Part shown: one piece after another, positions 2,819 through 20,013 of the stretch
Layout: each line of letters starts with the position of its first letter
How positions within the stretch are numbered: the stretch's first letter is position 1
NCBI GenBank assembly: GCA_022560875.1
Contig: JADFSH010000024.1
Coordinates: 1 to 34,341 of the forward strand
Direction: 5' to 3'
DNA length: 34,341 nt
From: Planctomycetota bacterium
Lineage (GTDB): Bacteria; Planctomycetota; Phycisphaerae; Phycisphaerales; SM1A02
The notes under the pieces: generated by a model
The model's input: only the letters and a program-made list of their open reading frames with translations
Databases searched by the model: none
What the model was told of the DNA's origin: nothing
Program-made: the position numbers and the translations under genes

Positions 2819-4507
2819 ATGGATCGTACATTATGTCTATTTCCGTGTGTGCAGCGATTGATATTTGTTACGCTGTCGGTGGCCAACATCTCCGGGCTCG
2901 TTGTCGCCCAGGATCCATCCAGTGATCCCGCGGCCGTTGGCGGATTGTCAGGTGGCGGGTCTCTGTCGTTGGAGGTGGAAGACTGCATCTCACCCCTCGA
3001 ACGCGAACAGGCAGAACAGATCGTTCGTCAATATCTGGATCGCAAAGCCCTTCTCTCTCAATTGAATAACCTCCCGCCGTCATTGTTCACCTTCTGGCCC
3101 ATGGGCGGCAGGCTGTACCATGACCTCTTCACAATGAATTATGTGGATCTCGGTCCCGGAACGAGTATCCTCGACTGGGATTGCACGAATCACTCATATG
3201 ATACGCATAAAGGCAACGACACGGATCTGATGAGCTTTGGGGAACAAGCCATCGGCGTGCCCGTCTTCGCAGCGTTGGACGGCGTGGTCATCAGCACGCA
3301 CGACGGGGAGCCGGACATGAATACGAGTTGCGCCGGGTTGGGAAACTCTGCGATCATCGATCACGGTAACGGTCGGATCGCATACTACTGGCACTTCAAG
3401 ACTCTAAGCGTAGCCATCTCGGCCGGGCAGACCGTCAAAGCAGGTCAGCAAATCGGATTGACCGGATCGAGTGGCTGCTCGACCGGCCCTCATCTGCACT
3501 ATGAGATTGTGGACTCCGGTATAGTAACTGAGCCTTACACAGGAACCTGCAACCCCGGGGCGAGCCAATGGACCGACCAGACTCCGATCCGGCGCGACCT
3601 CTACATTCGAGATTTCGGCATCACCCACCTGAACATGCACCTCGAGCCCTGGCTTCCTTTCGCCCTTCCCCGATCCGCCCAAATTGAGTTGTCCGATACG
3701 ATTTCCTACTACTGGGTGAGGATGCACAACGTACCGGCATTCAGCAGCTGGCAGTGGCATTTCATCAGACCGAACGGCACGATCGCTTTCATTGATTCTG
3801 GCATATTCAATATTTCGGTCTTGTTTCGCAGTGGATGGTGGTTCTTCGACTGGAACATCGCCGATATGCACACCATCCCCGGGACGTGGACGGGACGCTT
3901 CTGGGTGAACGGCACTCTGATGCTTGAGGCGCCGATCGAAGTCGTAGCCACCCGCGACCCAAGTTTCAATCGCCCGCCGAATCCTATATCTATCGCCCTC
4001 GAGCCCACAGCACCAACGACTGACGATGTCATTCAATGTCGCGTCAATTCCTCGCTGGTCATGGACGACCTGGATTGGGATATCGTCCGGTATCAATATA
4101 CCTGGAAGATCAACGGCAATGTGGTTCGGAGCGTGATCTCAGCGGGCAAGAGTGACGCGATTCCGCGCCAGCTCGCCCAGCCGTGCGATCTTGTGGAAGT
4201 CACCGTCACCGCATCAGATGGCAAGGAGAGCGCCGCGCCGGTGTTGGTTTCCGTGATCGTCGGCGCACCCGGCGACACCGATGATAACAACAATGGCATT
4301 CCGGATTCCTGCGAAATTTCGTGTGTCGGCGATTTTATCGGGGCCGGGGGTCTCCCGGACGGGCAGGTCAACGTCACTGATCTTCTGGCCCTGCTCGCGG
4401 CTTGGGGACCGTGCGCTGCGCCCTGCCCACCGGACATCAACACCGACGGCACCGTCAACGTCACCGACCTCCTCGCTCTCCTCGCCGCCTGGGGATCGTG
4501 TCCATAA
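2819..4507 (+). CDS. Exported M23 (LytM-type) metallopeptidase with dockerin-like C-terminal tag
   Basis: Predicted zinc endopeptidase acting outside the cytoplasm, probably on peptidoglycan peptides or other glycine-rich peptides. It is 562 residues long, with an N-terminal signal peptide (about 1-30, ending VVAQ). The M23 site is complete by inspection: H130 and D134 in HKGND, H192 in YYWHF, and H225/H227 in TGPHLHYEI. After the catalytic part come beta-rich segments, with an Ig-like stretch near 390-480. The tail, about 505-562, carries two copies of VNVTDLLALLAAWG, each after a D/N-rich calcium-loop-like segment, and ends SCP. The start is supported by GAGGT six bases upstream. The next gene has the same tail, so both probably share an anchoring or sorting route. 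The substrate is inferred. Confidence 0.88.
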   Translation: MDRTLCLFPCVQRLIFVTLSVANISGLVVAQDPSSDPAAVGGLSGGGSLSLEVEDCISPLEREQAEQIVRQYLDRKALLSQLNNLPPSLFTFWPMGGRLYHDLFTMNYVDLGPGTSILDWDCTNHSYDTHKGNDTDLMSFGEQAIGVPVFAALDGVVISTHDGEPDMNTSCAGLGNSAIIDHGNGRIAYYWHFKTLSVAISAGQTVKAGQQIGLTGSSGCSTGPHLHYEIVDSGIVTEPYTGTCNPGASQWTDQTPIRRDLYIRDFGITHLNMHLEPWLPFALPRSAQIELSDTISYYWVRMHNVPAFSSWQWHFIRPNGTIAFIDSGIFNISVLFRSGWWFFDWNIADMHTIPGTWTGRFWVNGTLMLEAPIEVVATRDPSFNRPPNPISIALEPTAPTTDDVIQCRVNSSLVMDDLDWDIVRYQYTWKINGNVVRSVISAGKSDAIPRQLAQPCDLVEVTVTASDGKESAAPVLVSVIVGAPGDTDDNNNGIPDSCEISCVGDFIGAGGLPDGQVNVTDLLALLAAWGPCAAPCPPDINTDGTVNVTDLLALLAAWGSCP

Positions 4508-4654: not shown

Positions 4655-7138
4655 ATGCGATTTCCAAAGTTGCCACTTCTTGTCGCTGCAGTAACAGTCT
4701 TCAGCACCCTGGCAGTCTACGCGGCCCTCGACGATCCGCTCTACAAACTCCTGCCGAAAGACAGCGCGGCGTCGGACCGGTTCGGCGAGTCGGTCGCGAC
4801 CAACGGCGCCATCGCCATAATCGGTGCCCGATCGAACGACGACAATGGCGACAACTCCGGATCCGCCTACATCTTCGACATCTCCACGGGTCAGCAACTC
4901 TTCAAACTCCTCCCGAACGACGGGGCGGCGTTCGACAACTTCGGCATCTCGGTCGCAATCAGTGGCACCACCGCAATCGTCGGGGCTTTCGGGGACGACG
5001 ACAACGGCGAGGCCTCCGGCTCTGCGTATCTGTTTGACACCACCACGGGTTTGCAGCTCGCCAAGCTCCTCCCCACCGACGGCGCGACGATCGCCTTCTT
5101 CGGCTGGTCCGTCGGGATCAGCGGCGACACTGCCATTGTCGGAGCCGACCGGGACAGCAACAACGGCTCGCAATCCGGATCCGCCTACCTCTTCGACACC
5201 CTCACGGGCCTGCAGATCGGGGCCAAGCTCCTGCCCAACGACGGCGCTTCGGGCGATATTTTCGGTTACTCCGTCGCGATCAGCAGCACGACCGCAATCG
5301 TGGGAGCCCAGGGGGACAACGACAACGGTAGCGTATCCGGCTCGGCCTACCTCTTCGACATCAGCACGGGACTTCAGATCGCCAAGCTCCTCGCCAACGA
5401 CGGCGCGGCGGACGACCGGTTCGGCTTCTCCGTCGCGATCAGCGGCACGATCGCTATTGTCGGGGCCAGCCTGAACGACGACAACGGCGACATCTCCGGT
5501 TCCGCCTATCTGTTTGACACCGATACCAACCTCCAGATCGCCAAGCTCCTACCCAACGATGGCGCGGCGGGCGACCAGTTCGGCCGCTCTGTAGCGATCA
5601 GCGGGGCCACCGCCATCGTCGGGGCCTGGCGGGACGACGACAACGGCAGCGACTCCGGTTCCGCCTACCTCTTCGACACTACGGGTACGCAGATATCCAA
5701 GCTTCTCCCCGACGACGGTGCAGCGGGCGACTGGTTCGGCCAATCCGTCGCGATCAGCGGCGCTATCGCCCTCGTCGGGGCCGAGCTGGATGACGATAAC
5801 GGCAGCGACTCCGGCTCCGTGTATCTCACAGCCGCCGACGCCGACCGCGACGGCTTGCTCGACTCCTGGGAGACCACCGGCATTCCCTACATCAATGGAT
5901 CAGGCCTAGACCTGCTTTACGTGCTGCCCGGCGCCGACCCCAACCACAAGAACCTTTATGTCGAGGTCGATCTGGACATATCGCAAGTCTTTCCACCCGC
6001 CTCACAGCAAATGGTGGTCGATGCGTTTGCCCAATCGCCGGTGTCCAATCCGGACGGCGTCAGCGGCGTGACTCTTCACATTCTCTACGATGAGGATCTT
6101 ATTGATGCCGCCTTCTTCACGACCTTTCCCGGGGGTCATCCCGATGCAGGTTGGGCGGTCGAGTTTGACGGCCTCAAGGCTGCTCACTTCGGTACGCCTG
6201 CCGAACGCCTTGTCAGTGACCCCGCTGCACTGCTCGAAGCCAAGGCCAAGGCGTACCGCTACTGCATATTCGCCGACAAGATCGATGACGGGAGCCTGGG
6301 CACGGCCGAGTTGCCCGGCAATGACATGTTCCTCACTCTCGGCGAGTTCAGTTCCCCCCCAATCAACACCAAGATCGCTTCGACCTTCATGCATGAATTC
6401 GGCCACACGCTCGGGCTCGGCCATGGTGGCGGTGACGGCATCAACGGCAAACCCAACTACATCAGCATCATGAACTACATGTTCACCTTTCCCTACAACT
6501 TTTCGACGTCATTCTGGACGCTCGACTATTCTCGCTTTCAACTTCCCACGCTGAATGAATCCAACCTGGATGAAACCGTCGGTGTCAACCCGTCCAATAT
6601 CTCCTACCTCAATTTCTGGGCAGCGCACGGCTACGAAAAACCCGACGGTGGCGGCGGATTTACGCGCGGTGGCATATTGATCTCGCTCGTACCGGGTTTA
6701 CCAATTGACTGGAACACCAACGGCACAAACACCGACCCCAGCGCCATTCAGGACCTCAATTACATGGGAAATGCGGCGCCCTTCGCCGGGGTCTCGAATC
6801 CATCCTATCCGCAGCTTCTCATTGGCCAAGATGACTGGGCCAACTTGGCTTACGCAATCGGAACCTCAGGCGATTTCGCCGACTTCACACACAATACGGT
6901 GCCGACAGACAAGCCCGACCAGGCCATGATTGACTGGATCAACGCCAACATCCCGTTGCCGCCGGTCGTGTGCCTTGCCGACACCAACGGCGATTCGATG
7001 GTTAACGTCACCGATCTGCTTACCTTGCTCGGAGGTTGGGGACCGAACGTGGGTCATCCCGCAGACTTTAATGACGACGGCAACGTCAACGTCACCGACC
7101 TGCTCGCCCTCCTCGCGGCGTGGGGGGTGTGCCCCTGA
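4655..7138 (+). CDS. Exported FG-GAP beta-propeller / metzincin-type protease with dockerin-like tag
   Basis: An 827-residue secreted protein with signal peptide 1-23 (ending AVYA). Seven FG-GAP repeats of about 53 residues (30-391) each contain F-G-x-S-V, AIVGA and a D/N-rich loop before GSAYLFD, enough for one closed seven-blade propeller. A short calcium-loop-like linker (DADRDGLLDSW) leads to a zincin domain with HEFGHTLGLGH at 580-590 (metal ligands H580, H584, H590; catalytic E581) and a Met-turn candidate at M606 in SIMNYM. The tail from about 773 has two dockerin-like units and ends VCP. Start is supported by AGGAGA just upstream of ATG 4655. Propeller and protease assignments are strong; the target is unknown. 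The propeller could bind a matrix or cell-surface ligand and position the protease. Confidence 0.88.
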   Translation: MRFPKLPLLVAAVTVFSTLAVYAALDDPLYKLLPKDSAASDRFGESVATNGAIAIIGARSNDDNGDNSGSAYIFDISTGQQLFKLLPNDGAAFDNFGISVAISGTTAIVGAFGDDDNGEASGSAYLFDTTTGLQLAKLLPTDGATIAFFGWSVGISGDTAIVGADRDSNNGSQSGSAYLFDTLTGLQIGAKLLPNDGASGDIFGYSVAISSTTAIVGAQGDNDNGSVSGSAYLFDISTGLQIAKLLANDGAADDRFGFSVAISGTIAIVGASLNDDNGDISGSAYLFDTDTNLQIAKLLPNDGAAGDQFGRSVAISGATAIVGAWRDDDNGSDSGSAYLFDTTGTQISKLLPDDGAAGDWFGQSVAISGAIALVGAELDDDNGSDSGSVYLTAADADRDGLLDSWETTGIPYINGSGLDLLYVLPGADPNHKNLYVEVDLDISQVFPPASQQMVVDAFAQSPVSNPDGVSGVTLHILYDEDLIDAAFFTTFPGGHPDAGWAVEFDGLKAAHFGTPAERLVSDPAALLEAKAKAYRYCIFADKIDDGSLGTAELPGNDMFLTLGEFSSPPINTKIASTFMHEFGHTLGLGHGGGDGINGKPNYISIMNYMFTFPYNFSTSFWTLDYSRFQLPTLNESNLDETVGVNPSNISYLNFWAAHGYEKPDGGGGFTRGGILISLVPGLPIDWNTNGTNTDPSAIQDLNYMGNAAPFAGVSNPSYPQLLIGQDDWANLAYAIGTSGDFADFTHNTVPTDKPDQAMIDWINANIPLPPVVCLADTNGDSMVNVTDLLTLLGGWGPNVGHPADFNDDGNVNVTDLLALLAAWGVCP
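4742..5829 (+). repeat. Seven in-frame tandem repeats of about 159 bp encoding FG-GAP blades
   Basis: Units begin at 4742, 4901, 5060, 5222, 5381, 5540 and 5696, so the spacing is 159, 159, 162, 159, 159 and 156 bp, always a multiple of three. The units are similar at DNA level, especially around AAGCTCCT and the GACGACAACGGC loop codons. This suggests spread by internal duplication, with scope for recombination that changes blade number. Confidence 0.9.
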
Positions 7139-15105: not shown

Positions 15106-15165
15106 TGACATGATGCCCGGAATTGGACAATTACAATCAAACCGGCTGTCGAAGGAGGCGTGCTG

Positions 15166-17322
15166 ATGGCAGGGACATCCTCCGCGCCAGAAATGCCCGC
15201 CGTGTTTGTCTGGGTCGGCAAGCATCAGCATCTGCTGGTGCCGGTCTCATTTCTCAGTATGATCGTGGTTCTTGTCGTACCACTGCCCACCGCGGTGATG
15301 GACATCCTGCTCTCGGCAAATATCTCCCTGGCGGCGGTGATTCTTCTCACCACAATCTACATAGGCCGACCGCTCGACTTCAGTGTCTTTCCGGCCCTGT
15401 TGCTGGCGACAACGCTGTTTCGACTTGTGCTCAACGTGGCCACCACACGTTTGATTCTTTCCGCCGATGCGCAGACCCCCGCCGATGCCGTCGGAGTCGC
15501 GGGTCATGTGATCGAGGCATTTGCGGGATTTGTCGCCGGCGAATCGGTCATCGTGGGCGTCATCATCTTCATTATCCTGGTGGTCGTGCAGTTCGTGGTG
15601 ATCACCAAAGGCGCGACGCGGATGAGTGAGGTCGCGGCGAGATTCACCCTCGACGCCATGCCCGGCAAGCAGATGGCCATCGATGCCGATCTTTCCGCCG
15701 GACTGATCAACGAATCCGATGCCATGCAGCGCCGTCAGGACATCACCCGAGAGGCGGATTTCTACGGGGCCATGGATGGCGCCAGTAAATTCGTGCGCGG
15801 CGATGCGATCGCCGGCATCATTATCACCCTTATCAACATCGTGGGTGGATTCGCAACCGGGGCGCTGATCAAGGGATGGTCGCTCGGCGATTCACTCGAA
15901 GTCTTCACTCGATTGACGATCGGCGATGGACTTGTCAGCCAGATCCCGTCGTTCATCATCGCCATTGCTGCGGGTCTCATTGTCGCCCGCACGGATGAGA
16001 AGACCACGATCGGCGAGGAGATTCCCAAACAACTCGCCTCACAGCCGATGGCGCTGTATCTCGTCTCCGGATTTCTGTGTCTGCTCGCGTTTACCCCGCT
16101 GCCGTCCCTCCCGATGTTCGGCGCGGCGGCCCTGATCGGAGGCGTCGCGTGGTCCATGGGGTTCATGAAACGAAAACAAAAGATCCACCATGAAATCGAG
16201 GCCCGGACTGAGGCGGCACAGAAGGCTCGGAGCGATCAACCGTCTGTCGAGGATCTTCTCAGTGTTGATACGTTGGAAATCGAGATCGGGTACGGGCTTG
16301 TCCAGCTTGTGGACGCTTCGCGAGGCGGCGACCTGCTCGATCGCATTTCGATGATCCGCCGACAGCTCGCGGTGGAGATCGGGATCGTCGTTCCCCCCAT
16401 TCGCATTCGCGACAACATGCAACTCGAAGCCAACAGTTATCGTGTGAAACTGCGGGGAGCGGCCATTGGTGAAGGGATTGTGTATCCGGAACTGATGATG
16501 GCGATGGACTCCGGACTCGCCACGGAAAGCATTGAGGGTCTCGCGGGTAAGGAACCGGCTTTCGGACTCAACGCCACCTGGATTGAGCAGGATCTCAAGC
16601 AGCGGGCGGAAGCGCTCAACTACACCGTGGTGGATGCCACCAGCGTAATGGCAACTCATCTGACCGAATTGATCAAGACCCACGCCGACGAACTGCTCAG
16701 TCGGGAGGAAATCAATCATCTCCTTGAGCACCTCAAGAAGAGTGCACCGAAACTTGTTGAGGAAGCCATACCCACCATCATCAAGCCGGGTGAACTTCAG
16801 AAAGTGCTTCAGAATCTTCTCAGGGAGCGAGTGCCGATCCGCGATCTGGAAACCATCGTGGAAACCCTCAGTGATTGGGCGACTCATACGAAAGACATCG
16901 ACGTGTTGACTGAATATGTGAGAAACGCTCTAAGACGCACAATATCAAACAGTTACATGGAGCTGGATGAGAAAAAAATATCCAAGCTCTATTGCGTGAC
17001 CCTGGACCCGGTCGTGGAGGATGTGATTAACGGGTATATCGATCGCGGGCCGTCGGGAACCACCATGTCGATCCCACCCGGAATCGCCAATCGGATCGCC
17101 TCATCGGTCAGCCAAGCGGTGGAATCCCTTGTGGGGGCGGGGCATCAGCTGGTTCTGCTGACCTCGCCGAGTGTGCGGGCTCAGGTCAAGCAGATACTGG
17201 ACAACCACATTCCCGGAGCGGTGGTACTTTCGTATAACGAAATCGTTCGGGAACTCGACGTAGAATCATTTGGTCTGGTACAGTTGTCCGAAGAGGATAT
17301 TGCCCACGCAGGAGTGGCGTAG
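15166..17322 (+). CDS. flhA: Flagellar export apparatus protein FlhA
   Basis: Largest export gate component: eight membrane helices, and a cytoplasmic domain that docks chaperone-substrate complexes. 718 residues. The FHIPEP signature MDGASKFVRGDAIAGI starts at residue 203. The C-terminal half contains ELIKTHADELLSREEINHLL, IPTIIKPGELQKVLQNLLRE and the late SVRAQVKQILDNHIPGAVVL, all typical. I chose ATG 15166, seven bases after AGGAGG; a GTG at 15160 is in frame. It lies between flhB and flhF in a standard order. Confidence 0.97.
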   Translation: MAGTSSAPEMPAVFVWVGKHQHLLVPVSFLSMIVVLVVPLPTAVMDILLSANISLAAVILLTTIYIGRPLDFSVFPALLLATTLFRLVLNVATTRLILSADAQTPADAVGVAGHVIEAFAGFVAGESVIVGVIIFIILVVVQFVVITKGATRMSEVAARFTLDAMPGKQMAIDADLSAGLINESDAMQRRQDITREADFYGAMDGASKFVRGDAIAGIIITLINIVGGFATGALIKGWSLGDSLEVFTRLTIGDGLVSQIPSFIIAIAAGLIVARTDEKTTIGEEIPKQLASQPMALYLVSGFLCLLAFTPLPSLPMFGAAALIGGVAWSMGFMKRKQKIHHEIEARTEAAQKARSDQPSVEDLLSVDTLEIEIGYGLVQLVDASRGGDLLDRISMIRRQLAVEIGIVVPPIRIRDNMQLEANSYRVKLRGAAIGEGIVYPELMMAMDSGLATESIEGLAGKEPAFGLNATWIEQDLKQRAEALNYTVVDATSVMATHLTELIKTHADELLSREEINHLLEHLKKSAPKLVEEAIPTIIKPGELQKVLQNLLRERVPIRDLETIVETLSDWATHTKDIDVLTEYVRNALRRTISNSYMELDEKKISKLYCVTLDPVVEDVINGYIDRGPSGTTMSIPPGIANRIASSVSQAVESLVGAGHQLVLLTSPSVRAQVKQILDNHIPGAVVLSYNEIVRELDVESFGLVQLSEEDIAHAGVA

Positions 17323-17387
17323 GGCGCAAAGCACTGTCATCGTCGTAAGGATTGCGACGCATCACCTCTGCCATGGAGGGCAATACG

Positions 17388-17918
17388 GTGAACCTCAAGA
17401 CCTATCGCGCTTTTTCAATGGCCGAAGCCTTGGCTGCCGTAAAACAGCACTTGGGCCATGACGCAATCATTCTCAATACCCGTTCCTTCCGACGGGGCGG
17501 CCTGTTCGGTCTGGGGGGAAAGACAATCATAGAAGTCACGGCAACGCCTGCGGAAAAGCCCGCAAATGCTCCGCTATTGGATCGTGCGAACTGGAGGACG
17601 ACGGACTCACACATGAAGAATGCCGTGGCCCGTCGTGCGTATTCAGCCACGACCGGAAAGGCGATTGGCCTGAAACCGCCCACTCATCAGCTATCCGATG
17701 GAATTCCCACTTCCCATGACAAAGAGCGCACGCGGCGTCTGGCTCAGGCCATGGAGGAAGTCCACAATCGAATGCCGTCTGAATCAAGACCGGATTCGGG
17801 GTTGACTCCTCTCGCCCAACCCCCGGCCCAACCCCCGGCCCAACCCCGGCCCAAACCCCGGCCCAAACCCCGGCCAAACCCGAGATCGCACCACCGGAAA
17901 ATAAGCCCCCGCAATTGA
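17388..17918 (+). CDS. flhF: FlhF, N-terminal B-domain part, cut short by a frameshift
   Basis: First part of the SRP-like GTPase that places the flagellum at the pole. Start GTG 17388 gives MNLKTYRAFSMAEALAAVK, matching the usual FlhF start, with GGAGGG seven bases upstream. The B domain has LGHDAIILNTRSFRRGG and is followed by a long polar linker. Within the linker, at the 12-bp repeat array 17815-17873, the frame is lost: the remaining residues become Arg/Pro/Lys/His-rich and stop at 17916-17918. The third repeat unit is 11 bp instead of 12; restoring one C would continue the frame without a stop into the GTPase part at 17915-19006, giving a full FlhF of about 539 residues. Whether this is mutation, assembly error or switching cannot be told here. 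Confidence 0.8.
   Translation: MNLKTYRAFSMAEALAAVKQHLGHDAIILNTRSFRRGGLFGLGGKTIIEVTATPAEKPANAPLLDRANWRTTDSHMKNAVARRAYSATTGKAIGLKPPTHQLSDGIPTSHDKERTRRLAQAMEEVHNRMPSESRPDSGLTPLAQPPAQPPAQPRPKPRPKPRPNPRSHHRKISPRN
17815..17873 (+). repeat. C-rich tandem repeat (five units of 12, 12, 11, 12, 12 bp) at the flhF frameshift
   Basis: Units run 17815-17826, 17827-17838, 17839-17849, 17850-17861 and 17862-17873, of the form CCCAA(A)C4-5GG. Units 1 and 2 have a C5 run, and units 4 and 5 have AAA plus C4. Unit 3 has AA plus C4 and is one base short. A 12-bp unit keeps frame and encodes Ala-Gln-Pro/Thr-Pro repeats; the 11-bp unit shifts it. Confidence 0.92.
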
Positions 17919-19006
17919 TTCCGGCAATAACTGACGCCCGGAAAAGCAACCCCAACGTCATCAAGACTCAGGGTAAGCCGCAACGGTTCATACTGACTCC
18001 TGTGAAAGAGGTCAGCGCGGCAGCAAAGATCGTCTCAAGCAAAGATGATGATCCGGCTTCCAGTGTCATGCATGACCGCACTGTTTCCGCGACATCCGAC
18101 GATTCTGAAACGATGCAGGAGGAACTTGCCGCGATCCGCCAGCTCGTGGGTCAGGTTCTCAAGCACCAGACGCAAACGACAGGTTTTCCACAATCCGGGA
18201 TGCCGCAGATTCTCTTTGATCAGTACTTGAAACTGATCAGCCAGGATCTTTCGGAGGAACTGTCTGAGCAGGTGATCAATCGGGTTCGCAAAGATCTGAC
18301 GGTTCCCGATCTTGAGGATGTCGAGAAGGTCAGGGAAAAGACACTGGAGTATCTAGCCGCCTTCATTCCCACGCTGGATCATCCCTTGCCAGAAGAAAGC
18401 CCGGACGGACGACCGCTGACGATCGCCCTCATCGGACCGACGGGGGTGGGCAAGACCACCACCTTGGCGAAGATCGCGGCATCTTGCAAATTACGACAGG
18501 GCAAGTCCGTCGGCCTTATCACGGCCGACACCTATCGAATTGCCGCGGTCGATCAACTTCGCACCTACGCCAACATCATCGGGTTGCCGCTGGAGGTGGC
18601 GTTGACCCCGACGGATATGAAACAAGCGGTGCATGCCCTGAGTGGCTGCGACGTTATTCTCATCGACACGGCGGGGAGAAGTCAGAACGACGGAGGGCGT
18701 CTGAAGGAACTTGCCCGGTTCATCGAAGCCGCCGATCCGCATGAAGTGCATCTCGTGCTTTCGAGCACCGCCAGTGAGAAGGTGCTTCTGAACGAGGCGG
18801 AGGCTTTTTCTGAAGTGGGCGTAGACAAGCTCGTGCTTACGAAACTCGATGAAGCGGTGAGTTTCGGCGTTCTCGTGAATGTGTTGAGAAAAGTGGGCAA
18901 GAATCTGAGTTTCATTACCACCGGACAGGAAGTACCGGATCACATCGAATGCGGTCGCTCAACCCGGTTGGCGCAACTGGTGATGGGAGAAACAGTGCAT
19001 CCATGA
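17915..19006 (+). CDS. flhF: FlhF, C-terminal NG GTPase part (downstream of frameshift)
   Basis: Carries the N and G domains of the SRP-family GTPase. GTP-binding motifs are intact: G1 GPTGVGKTTT, then ITADTYRIAAVDQLRTYA, G3 DTAGRSQND and G4 TKLDEA. This frame is open upstream through the linker (AKPEIAPPENKPPQLIP) into the repeat array, showing it belongs to the same gene as 17388-17918. Position 17915 is only the first TTG in this frame, overlapping the upstream stop as TTGA, with no convincing ribosome site. Later in-frame ATGs at 18068 and 18113 could begin a free NG protein. The stop overlaps the flhG start. Confidence 0.82.
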   Translation: MIPAITDARKSNPNVIKTQGKPQRFILTPVKEVSAAAKIVSSKDDDPASSVMHDRTVSATSDDSETMQEELAAIRQLVGQVLKHQTQTTGFPQSGMPQILFDQYLKLISQDLSEELSEQVINRVRKDLTVPDLEDVEKVREKTLEYLAAFIPTLDHPLPEESPDGRPLTIALIGPTGVGKTTTLAKIAASCKLRQGKSVGLITADTYRIAAVDQLRTYANIIGLPLEVALTPTDMKQAVHALSGCDVILIDTAGRSQNDGGRLKELARFIEAADPHEVHLVLSSTASEKVLLNEAEAFSEVGVDKLVLTKLDEAVSFGVLVNVLRKVGKNLSFITTGQEVPDHIECGRSTRLAQLVMGETVHP

Positions 19007-20013
19007 TGGACCAGGCTTCCCAGTTGCGCGGCATGATCGAGGAGATCCGAAACGGCACTGTCGGCGCGGATGGGTTTTCGTGTGCCTCCAGTGTCCCTGC
19101 GGGAGTCGTGAGTTACGCCCCCAAGACGCATCATGATGCGATGTCGAACCGCCGAAGTGATCGCCCTTTACCTCAGAGTAGGGTGCGATTGGCCAACGCC
19201 ATTACAATCTGTTCAGGCAAGGGCGGCGTAGGCAAGAGCAACGTGGCGGTGAATCTTGCGGTCGTCCTGAGTCGTTTGGGAAACAAAGTCTGCCTGCTCG
19301 ATGCCGATCTCGGAATGGCCAATGCCGATGTGCTTTGCAATCTGTCCCCGAGGCGTACGCTTGAGCATGTCGTCAATGGCCAATGCGAACTGGCGGAAGT
19401 CGCGTTGCTTGCACCGGGTGGGTTTCGATTGATTCCCGGTGGCTCTGGCGTGGTGCGTTTGGCGAATATGCCGCAGGCTCGCCGTCTGGCATTGCTCAGA
19501 CAGTTGTCGATTATCGATCGGACGGCGGATTACATCATTATTGACACCAGTGCGGGACTCAATGCGAATGTACTCGGGTTTGCCGCATCGGCGAACCGCG
19601 TGCTTATGATAACCACCCCCGAACCGACGTCGGTGACAGATGCCTACGGCATGATCAAAGTTTTGTGGAGACAATTTCCGGAGATCAGGATCGAGATTGT
19701 GGTGAATCTCGTGGAATCGGAAGCTGAGGGGAGAGAAGTGTTCGCCCGGATTGATCGGGTTTGCCGGACATTTCTGCGATCATCGCCACGCTGGGGCGGA
19801 TATCTTCCGATTGACAGTCAGGTGGCGGAAGCGGTTCGGATGCGGGTTCCATTTACATTATTTTCACCCGATGGGGCGGCCACAAAATCACTGCAAATTA
19901 TCGCCAACCGGTTGACTGGCAATGAGTTAGAGCCATCGAGGACGGAGCGTGGGTTTTTTTCACGGCTCATGTCCCGTTTTTCGACCGATTCAAGACACTC
20001 TTGTTCGATATGA
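19003..20013 (+). CDS. flhG: Flagellar number regulator FlhG (MinD-like ATPase)
   Basis: MinD/ParA-family ATPase that limits flagellar number and stimulates the FlhF GTPase. 336 residues. The first residues, MMDQASQLRGMIEE, carry the DQAxxLR activator helix known from FlhG, which supports ATG 19003 (or 19006) over the longer frame from 18949. After a 45-residue linker comes the deviant Walker A SGKGGVGKSNVAVNLA (from 71), then LLDADLGMANADV and YIIIDTSAGLNANVL. The start overlaps the flhF stop. A Ser/Arg-rich C-terminal tail follows. Confidence 0.94.
   Translation: MMDQASQLRGMIEEIRNGTVGADGFSCASSVPAGVVSYAPKTHHDAMSNRRSDRPLPQSRVRLANAITICSGKGGVGKSNVAVNLAVVLSRLGNKVCLLDADLGMANADVLCNLSPRRTLEHVVNGQCELAEVALLAPGGFRLIPGGSGVVRLANMPQARRLALLRQLSIIDRTADYIIIDTSAGLNANVLGFAASANRVLMITTPEPTSVTDAYGMIKVLWRQFPEIRIEIVVNLVESEAEGREVFARIDRVCRTFLRSSPRWGGYLPIDSQVAEAVRMRVPFTLFSPDGAATKSLQIIANRLTGNELEPSRTERGFFSRLMSRFSTDSRHSCSI

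Follow-up and report, generated by a model that had tools for sequence, protein, structure and literature searches.

A single-base frame break within a 12-bp linker repeat of flhF in a draft Phycisphaerales genome

The flagellar positioning gene flhF of an uncultured planctomycete is split, in the sequence available, between two reading frames. This raises the question of whether the gene is broken in the cells, is rejoined or switched during expression, or is broken only in the draft. In other bacteria FlhF, together with FlhG, sets the place and number of flagella (PMC3930126). The window, which is the whole stretch of 34,341 nt that was analysed, is one contig (C30) of a 226-contig draft assembly of 3.66 Mb, 90.66% complete and with 3.67% contamination, whose closest named relatives are draft genomes of Phycisphaerales (Planctomycetota). 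An earlier note on this DNA had offered four options, of which recent mutation and assembly error both emerged as likely, while ribosomal frameshifting and phase variation went unsupported. The explanation favoured here, at a probability of roughly one in two, is a recent one-base slip in a linker repeat array, carried by the sequenced population.

The two halves of flhF and their neighbourhood

The first piece of the gene matches positions 1–124 of the NCBIfam FlhF model TIGR03499 (56 bits), and its B domain is mostly 50–76% identical to the B domains of relatives. The second piece matches positions 94–286 of the same model (176 bits, the cut-off being 174) and the Pfam SRP54 GTPase (148 bits), and its NG core is 85% identical to that of a congener (L033). 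It contains the SRP-type GTPase motifs GPTGVGKTTT, DTAGR and TKLDE, and the earlier reading of these downstream motifs as intact is borne out. The NG frame (the −1 frame) is open from 17801 to its stop at 19004–19006, with 407 codons open. As had been described, then, a B domain and an NG GTPase that both match TIGR03499 stand in different frames within 17388–19006; the two frames are one base apart, and no single ORF spans both. The features of the locus are listed in Table 1.

Table 1. Features of the flhF locus, with positions in the window
Feature	Position	Strand	Basis or remark
flhA, intact, directly upstream of flhF	15160..17322	+	TIGR01398, 826 bits; homology
flhF 5' part: FlhF B domain (~17388–17550) and first half of linker with conserved ERTRRLAQAM motif	17388..17813	+	TIGR03499 match
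12-bp tandem array in linker	17814..17881	+	TRF: period 12, 5.8 copies, score 108
Out-of-frame tail of first frame (RPKPRPKPRPNPRSHHRKISPRN), ending at TGA 17916–17918	17849..17918	+	Coding score below that of the NG frame from 17846
flhF 3' part: remaining linker (AQTPAQTPAKPE..., conserved KPQRFILTP motif) and complete NG SRP-type GTPase	17849..19006	+	Homology, profiles
flhG-like MinD/ParA ATPase gene	19003..20013	+	Homology begins at 19009, residue 3

The gene has the neighbourhood characteristic of FlhF, with flhA upstream and flhG downstream. The surrounding flagellar cluster comprises motB, a fliN-like gene, fliO/fliP, fliR, flhB, flhA, the flhG-like ATPase gene and fliA, and is followed by type IV pilus genes; motB, the fliN-like gene, fliP, fliR, flhB, flhA, flhG and fliA are intact. 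The flhF stop codon overlaps the flhG start (ATGA at 19003–19006), so flhG may be translationally coupled to flhF. The genome has a single flhF, the remaining SRP-GTPase matches resembling ftsY and ffh apart from a weak fragment, and a search of viral contigs for a second copy found no relative. A promoter and terminator scan of 17300–18100 returned nothing.

Repeats of another kind occur elsewhere in the window. Within an ORF at 4655–7138, six copies of a 159-bp repeat (4836–5819) code for units that match Pfam FG-GAP_2 (PF14312) with 420 bits. This FG-GAP protein and a peptidase M23 protein (2819–4507) have a dockerin-like C-terminal tail in common (6893–7138 and 4358–4507, respectively; VNVTDLLALLAAWG twice), which is present too on proteins of relative L180 and is perhaps a sorting or anchoring tail.

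The linker array and the position of the frame break

The array is well beyond chance repetition: its repeat score of 115 compares with maxima of 44 when the 540-bp surroundings were shuffled and 78 when only 17790–17919 was shuffled (300 shuffles for each scope). Units 1, 2, 4 and 5 are 12 bp long, against 11 bp for unit 3 (17838–17848); a sixth unit, the last, is degenerate. There are two unit types, GCCCAACCCCCG in units 1–2 and GCCCAAACCCCG in units 4–5; the short unit lies at the boundary between them and can be read as either type lacking a single base in a short run of C or A. The five 12-bp units with only the third one short had been described correctly, although the first base of the array is 17814 and the degenerate sixth copy had gone unmentioned. 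C-runs within it are 4–5 bases long, the longest being 5. The linker translates as Ala-Gln-Pro-Pro in the first frame and as Ala-Gln-Thr-Pro in the second, in agreement with the Ala-Gln-Pro/Thr-Pro linker proposed earlier. No other occurrence of the array was found in the genome, and folding of its DNA revealed nothing unusual in structure.

Alignments to relatives can be followed in the B frame as far as 17786 (L036) and resume in the NG frame at 17852 (L037). A codon model trained on the window's own genome prefers the B frame until about 17846 and the NG frame thereafter, the change falling between 17814–17846 and 17846–17881. The homology bounds and the coding scores agree in putting the frame switch within the array, which confirms what the earlier note had described. 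The chance that a random indel would fall in the 68-bp array is about 4% (68/1617).

Relatives, isolation and age of the break

The search for relatives covered 60 related genomes and 80 named loci. Some genomes are represented in both sets, and the repeat analysis was made on 92 distinct flhF genes. Where both domains were found they share one frame in 102 of 104 loci. The exceptions are the window and L076 (CP053450.1, isolate PNC22), whose shift is of the opposite register: the domains lie 946 versus 1025 bases apart, leaving remainders of 1 and 2. The PNC22 record, titled chromosome, has breaks in flhF (~3570–4030) and in the neighbouring flhG (~5170), within 2 kb. Since the adjoining flhG is frame-broken too, L076 looks indel-prone rather than the bearer of a conserved feature, and its flhF break is probably an assembly error.

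In the one congener compared (G001, L033), flhF is intact and its linker is proline-rich, with the array absent. Tandem repeats, often of 12 bp, were found in 16 of the 92 distinct genes, the window's included, and every repeat-bearing flhF other than the window's keeps its frame. Those of L028, L097, L107, L098 and L072 contain their own, unrelated in-frame linker repeats of 12 bp or longer; TNTA ×5, PDRA ×4 and ASVA ×4 are examples from planctomycete linkers. Repeat-bearing FlhF linkers with the frame kept are common in Planctomycetota, and repeats seem to have arisen in this linker over and over, since other members of the phylum carry their own unrelated ones.

The break is isolated within its genome. 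When 754 kb of the window genome was compared with 813 proteins of a single-contig relative (G032), flhF alone changed frame among 61 well-aligned genes (66 kb); the other 60 genes (~65 kb) had no frame breaks, which makes general indel noise unlikely. A frameshift HMM run over the 754 kb gave 55 calls, mostly gene boundaries, and was discarded. A stricter version gave nine weak candidates, again seemingly gene boundaries; the homology comparison was preferred because this HMM is insensitive to short pieces, and flhF itself went unflagged.

Amino-acid replacements specific to the window or the congener branch were counted against five outgroups. The NG domain has 23–27 unique replacements in the window and 21–29 in the congener, and the B domain 3–4 and 4–9, respectively. 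From these counts both domains look conserved, and neither half of flhF appears decayed. With no excess of replacements on the window branch, the break would be either recent or absent from the cells.

A recent slip would account for these observations as follows. The flhF would be ordinary for Phycisphaerales, with a B domain, a long and variable proline/alanine-rich linker and an NG GTPase, and would have lost one base, as an isolated event, within a 12-bp linker repeat that is young and lineage-specific. The base would most likely have been removed recently, by polymerase slippage in a short run of C or of A or by misalignment between the two unit types. We infer both that the cells themselves lack the base, as the assembly does, and what the break would do to the protein: as written, the gene would yield hardly any GTPase, or none, but a B-domain protein of ~177–182 residues whose tail is basic and proline-rich. 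The possibly coupled flhG might be affected in turn, and the overlap of the flhF stop with the flhG start means that the break could lower flhG too.

A tentative alternative is an assembly or consensus error, in which case flhF would be unbroken in the cells and the short unit would exist only in the draft sequence. The draft is fragmented and incomplete, and the short unit lies exactly where two near-identical unit types meet, in the kind of repeat at which short-read assemblers can fail. A local consensus fault fits the same data as a real deletion. The intact flhF of relatives and the lack of decay in either half point the same way, as does the second frame break that adjoins the only other broken copy, that of PNC22. 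However, the ~65 kb of unbroken aligned genes speaks against a general indel problem, and the array is shorter than an ordinary short read. Its runs are of only 4–5 bases, a length at which one-base indels are rare in Illumina data, though the sequencing platform here may differ.

Switching, frameshifting and comparison with known systems

Phase variation, in which slippage in the linker array would reversibly switch the GTPase part on and off, is very unlikely. Slippage switches are known in the flagellar genes flgR and flgS of Campylobacter jejuni, flhA of Campylobacter coli and fliP of Helicobacter pylori, and work through tract-length changes that shift the frame (PMC3930126). The flhF array resembles them in being a repeat inside a flagellar coding sequence, but gain or loss of its 12-bp units is frame-neutral and its homopolymers are of just 4–5 C; it offers no repeat or homopolymer tract of the frame-shifting kind, and a single allele is seen in the one sequence of the species analysed. 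Nor is the tract conserved even within the genus, the congener being without it, and 12-bp linker repeats elsewhere stay in frame. The suggestion of a phase-variable flhF is therefore not upheld.

Loss of the 11-bp unit would restore the frame, so the array could raise the reversion rate, perhaps above that of an ordinary indel; the opposite switch, however, requires a fresh one-base slip every time. A one-sided switch of this kind, which we regard as very doubtful, would turn the GTPase off when a slip creates the 11-bp unit and on again, at raised frequency, when that unit is lost, so that motile and non-motile cells would coexist in the planctomycete population. Among the papers searched, none links FlhF with tandem repeats and frameshifts; those on FlhF and slipped-strand phase variation concern other genes.

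Joining of the two frames by programmed −1 frameshifting, whether ribosomal or transcriptional, is extremely improbable. The frames overlap over at least 17801–17918, and one X XXY YYZ heptamer, AAACCCG at 17876, is in the right frame. However, this A/C-rich stretch holds five heptamers of that kind, and chance alone would place one of them in frame. Heptamers with Y=C are not known to be efficient frameshift sites, and the site at 17876 is a weak one. The RNA after it folds no more than shuffled sequences do (z = 0.21), and long A or T runs on which transcription could slip are absent. The flhF of relatives is read without any frameshift, and the broken PNC22 copy is shifted the other way. 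A stable split into a B-domain protein and a separate NG GTPase starting near 17915, where a TTG overlapping the TGA stop makes a restart conceivable, is just as improbable, for a comparable split occurs in no relative but the error-prone PNC22 record, and conserved linker is coded in the NG frame upstream of 17915 (homology from 17852/17885).

The locus serves mainly as a caution that, in draft genomes, repeat-rich linkers split genes on paper; without reads, a gene divided at such a linker should not be taken as lost or phase-variable. It also puts on record that FlhF linkers of Planctomycetota often contain 12-bp repeats that keep the frame. Were the array a true switch, flhF and the Planctomycetota would join the few flagellar genes, and their hosts, in which slippage is known to exert control.

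Compared with known systems, the window's gene shares with FlhF (TIGR03499), the third SRP-type GTPase paralogue, its B domain, variable linker, NG GTPase and position between flhA and flhG, but a single break in the linker interrupts its reading frame. The FlhF linkers of L028, L097 and L107 likewise have 12-bp tandem units between the B and NG domains; all those inspected keep one open frame, whereas the window's does not. The likeness to slippage phase variation in flgR, flgS, flhA and fliP is that an indel in a repeat within a flagellar coding sequence truncates the product. The tracts of those genes, however, are short-sequence or homopolymer repeats whose number shifts the frame (PMC3930126), in contrast to the frame-neutral 12-bp units and 4–5-base homopolymers of the window.
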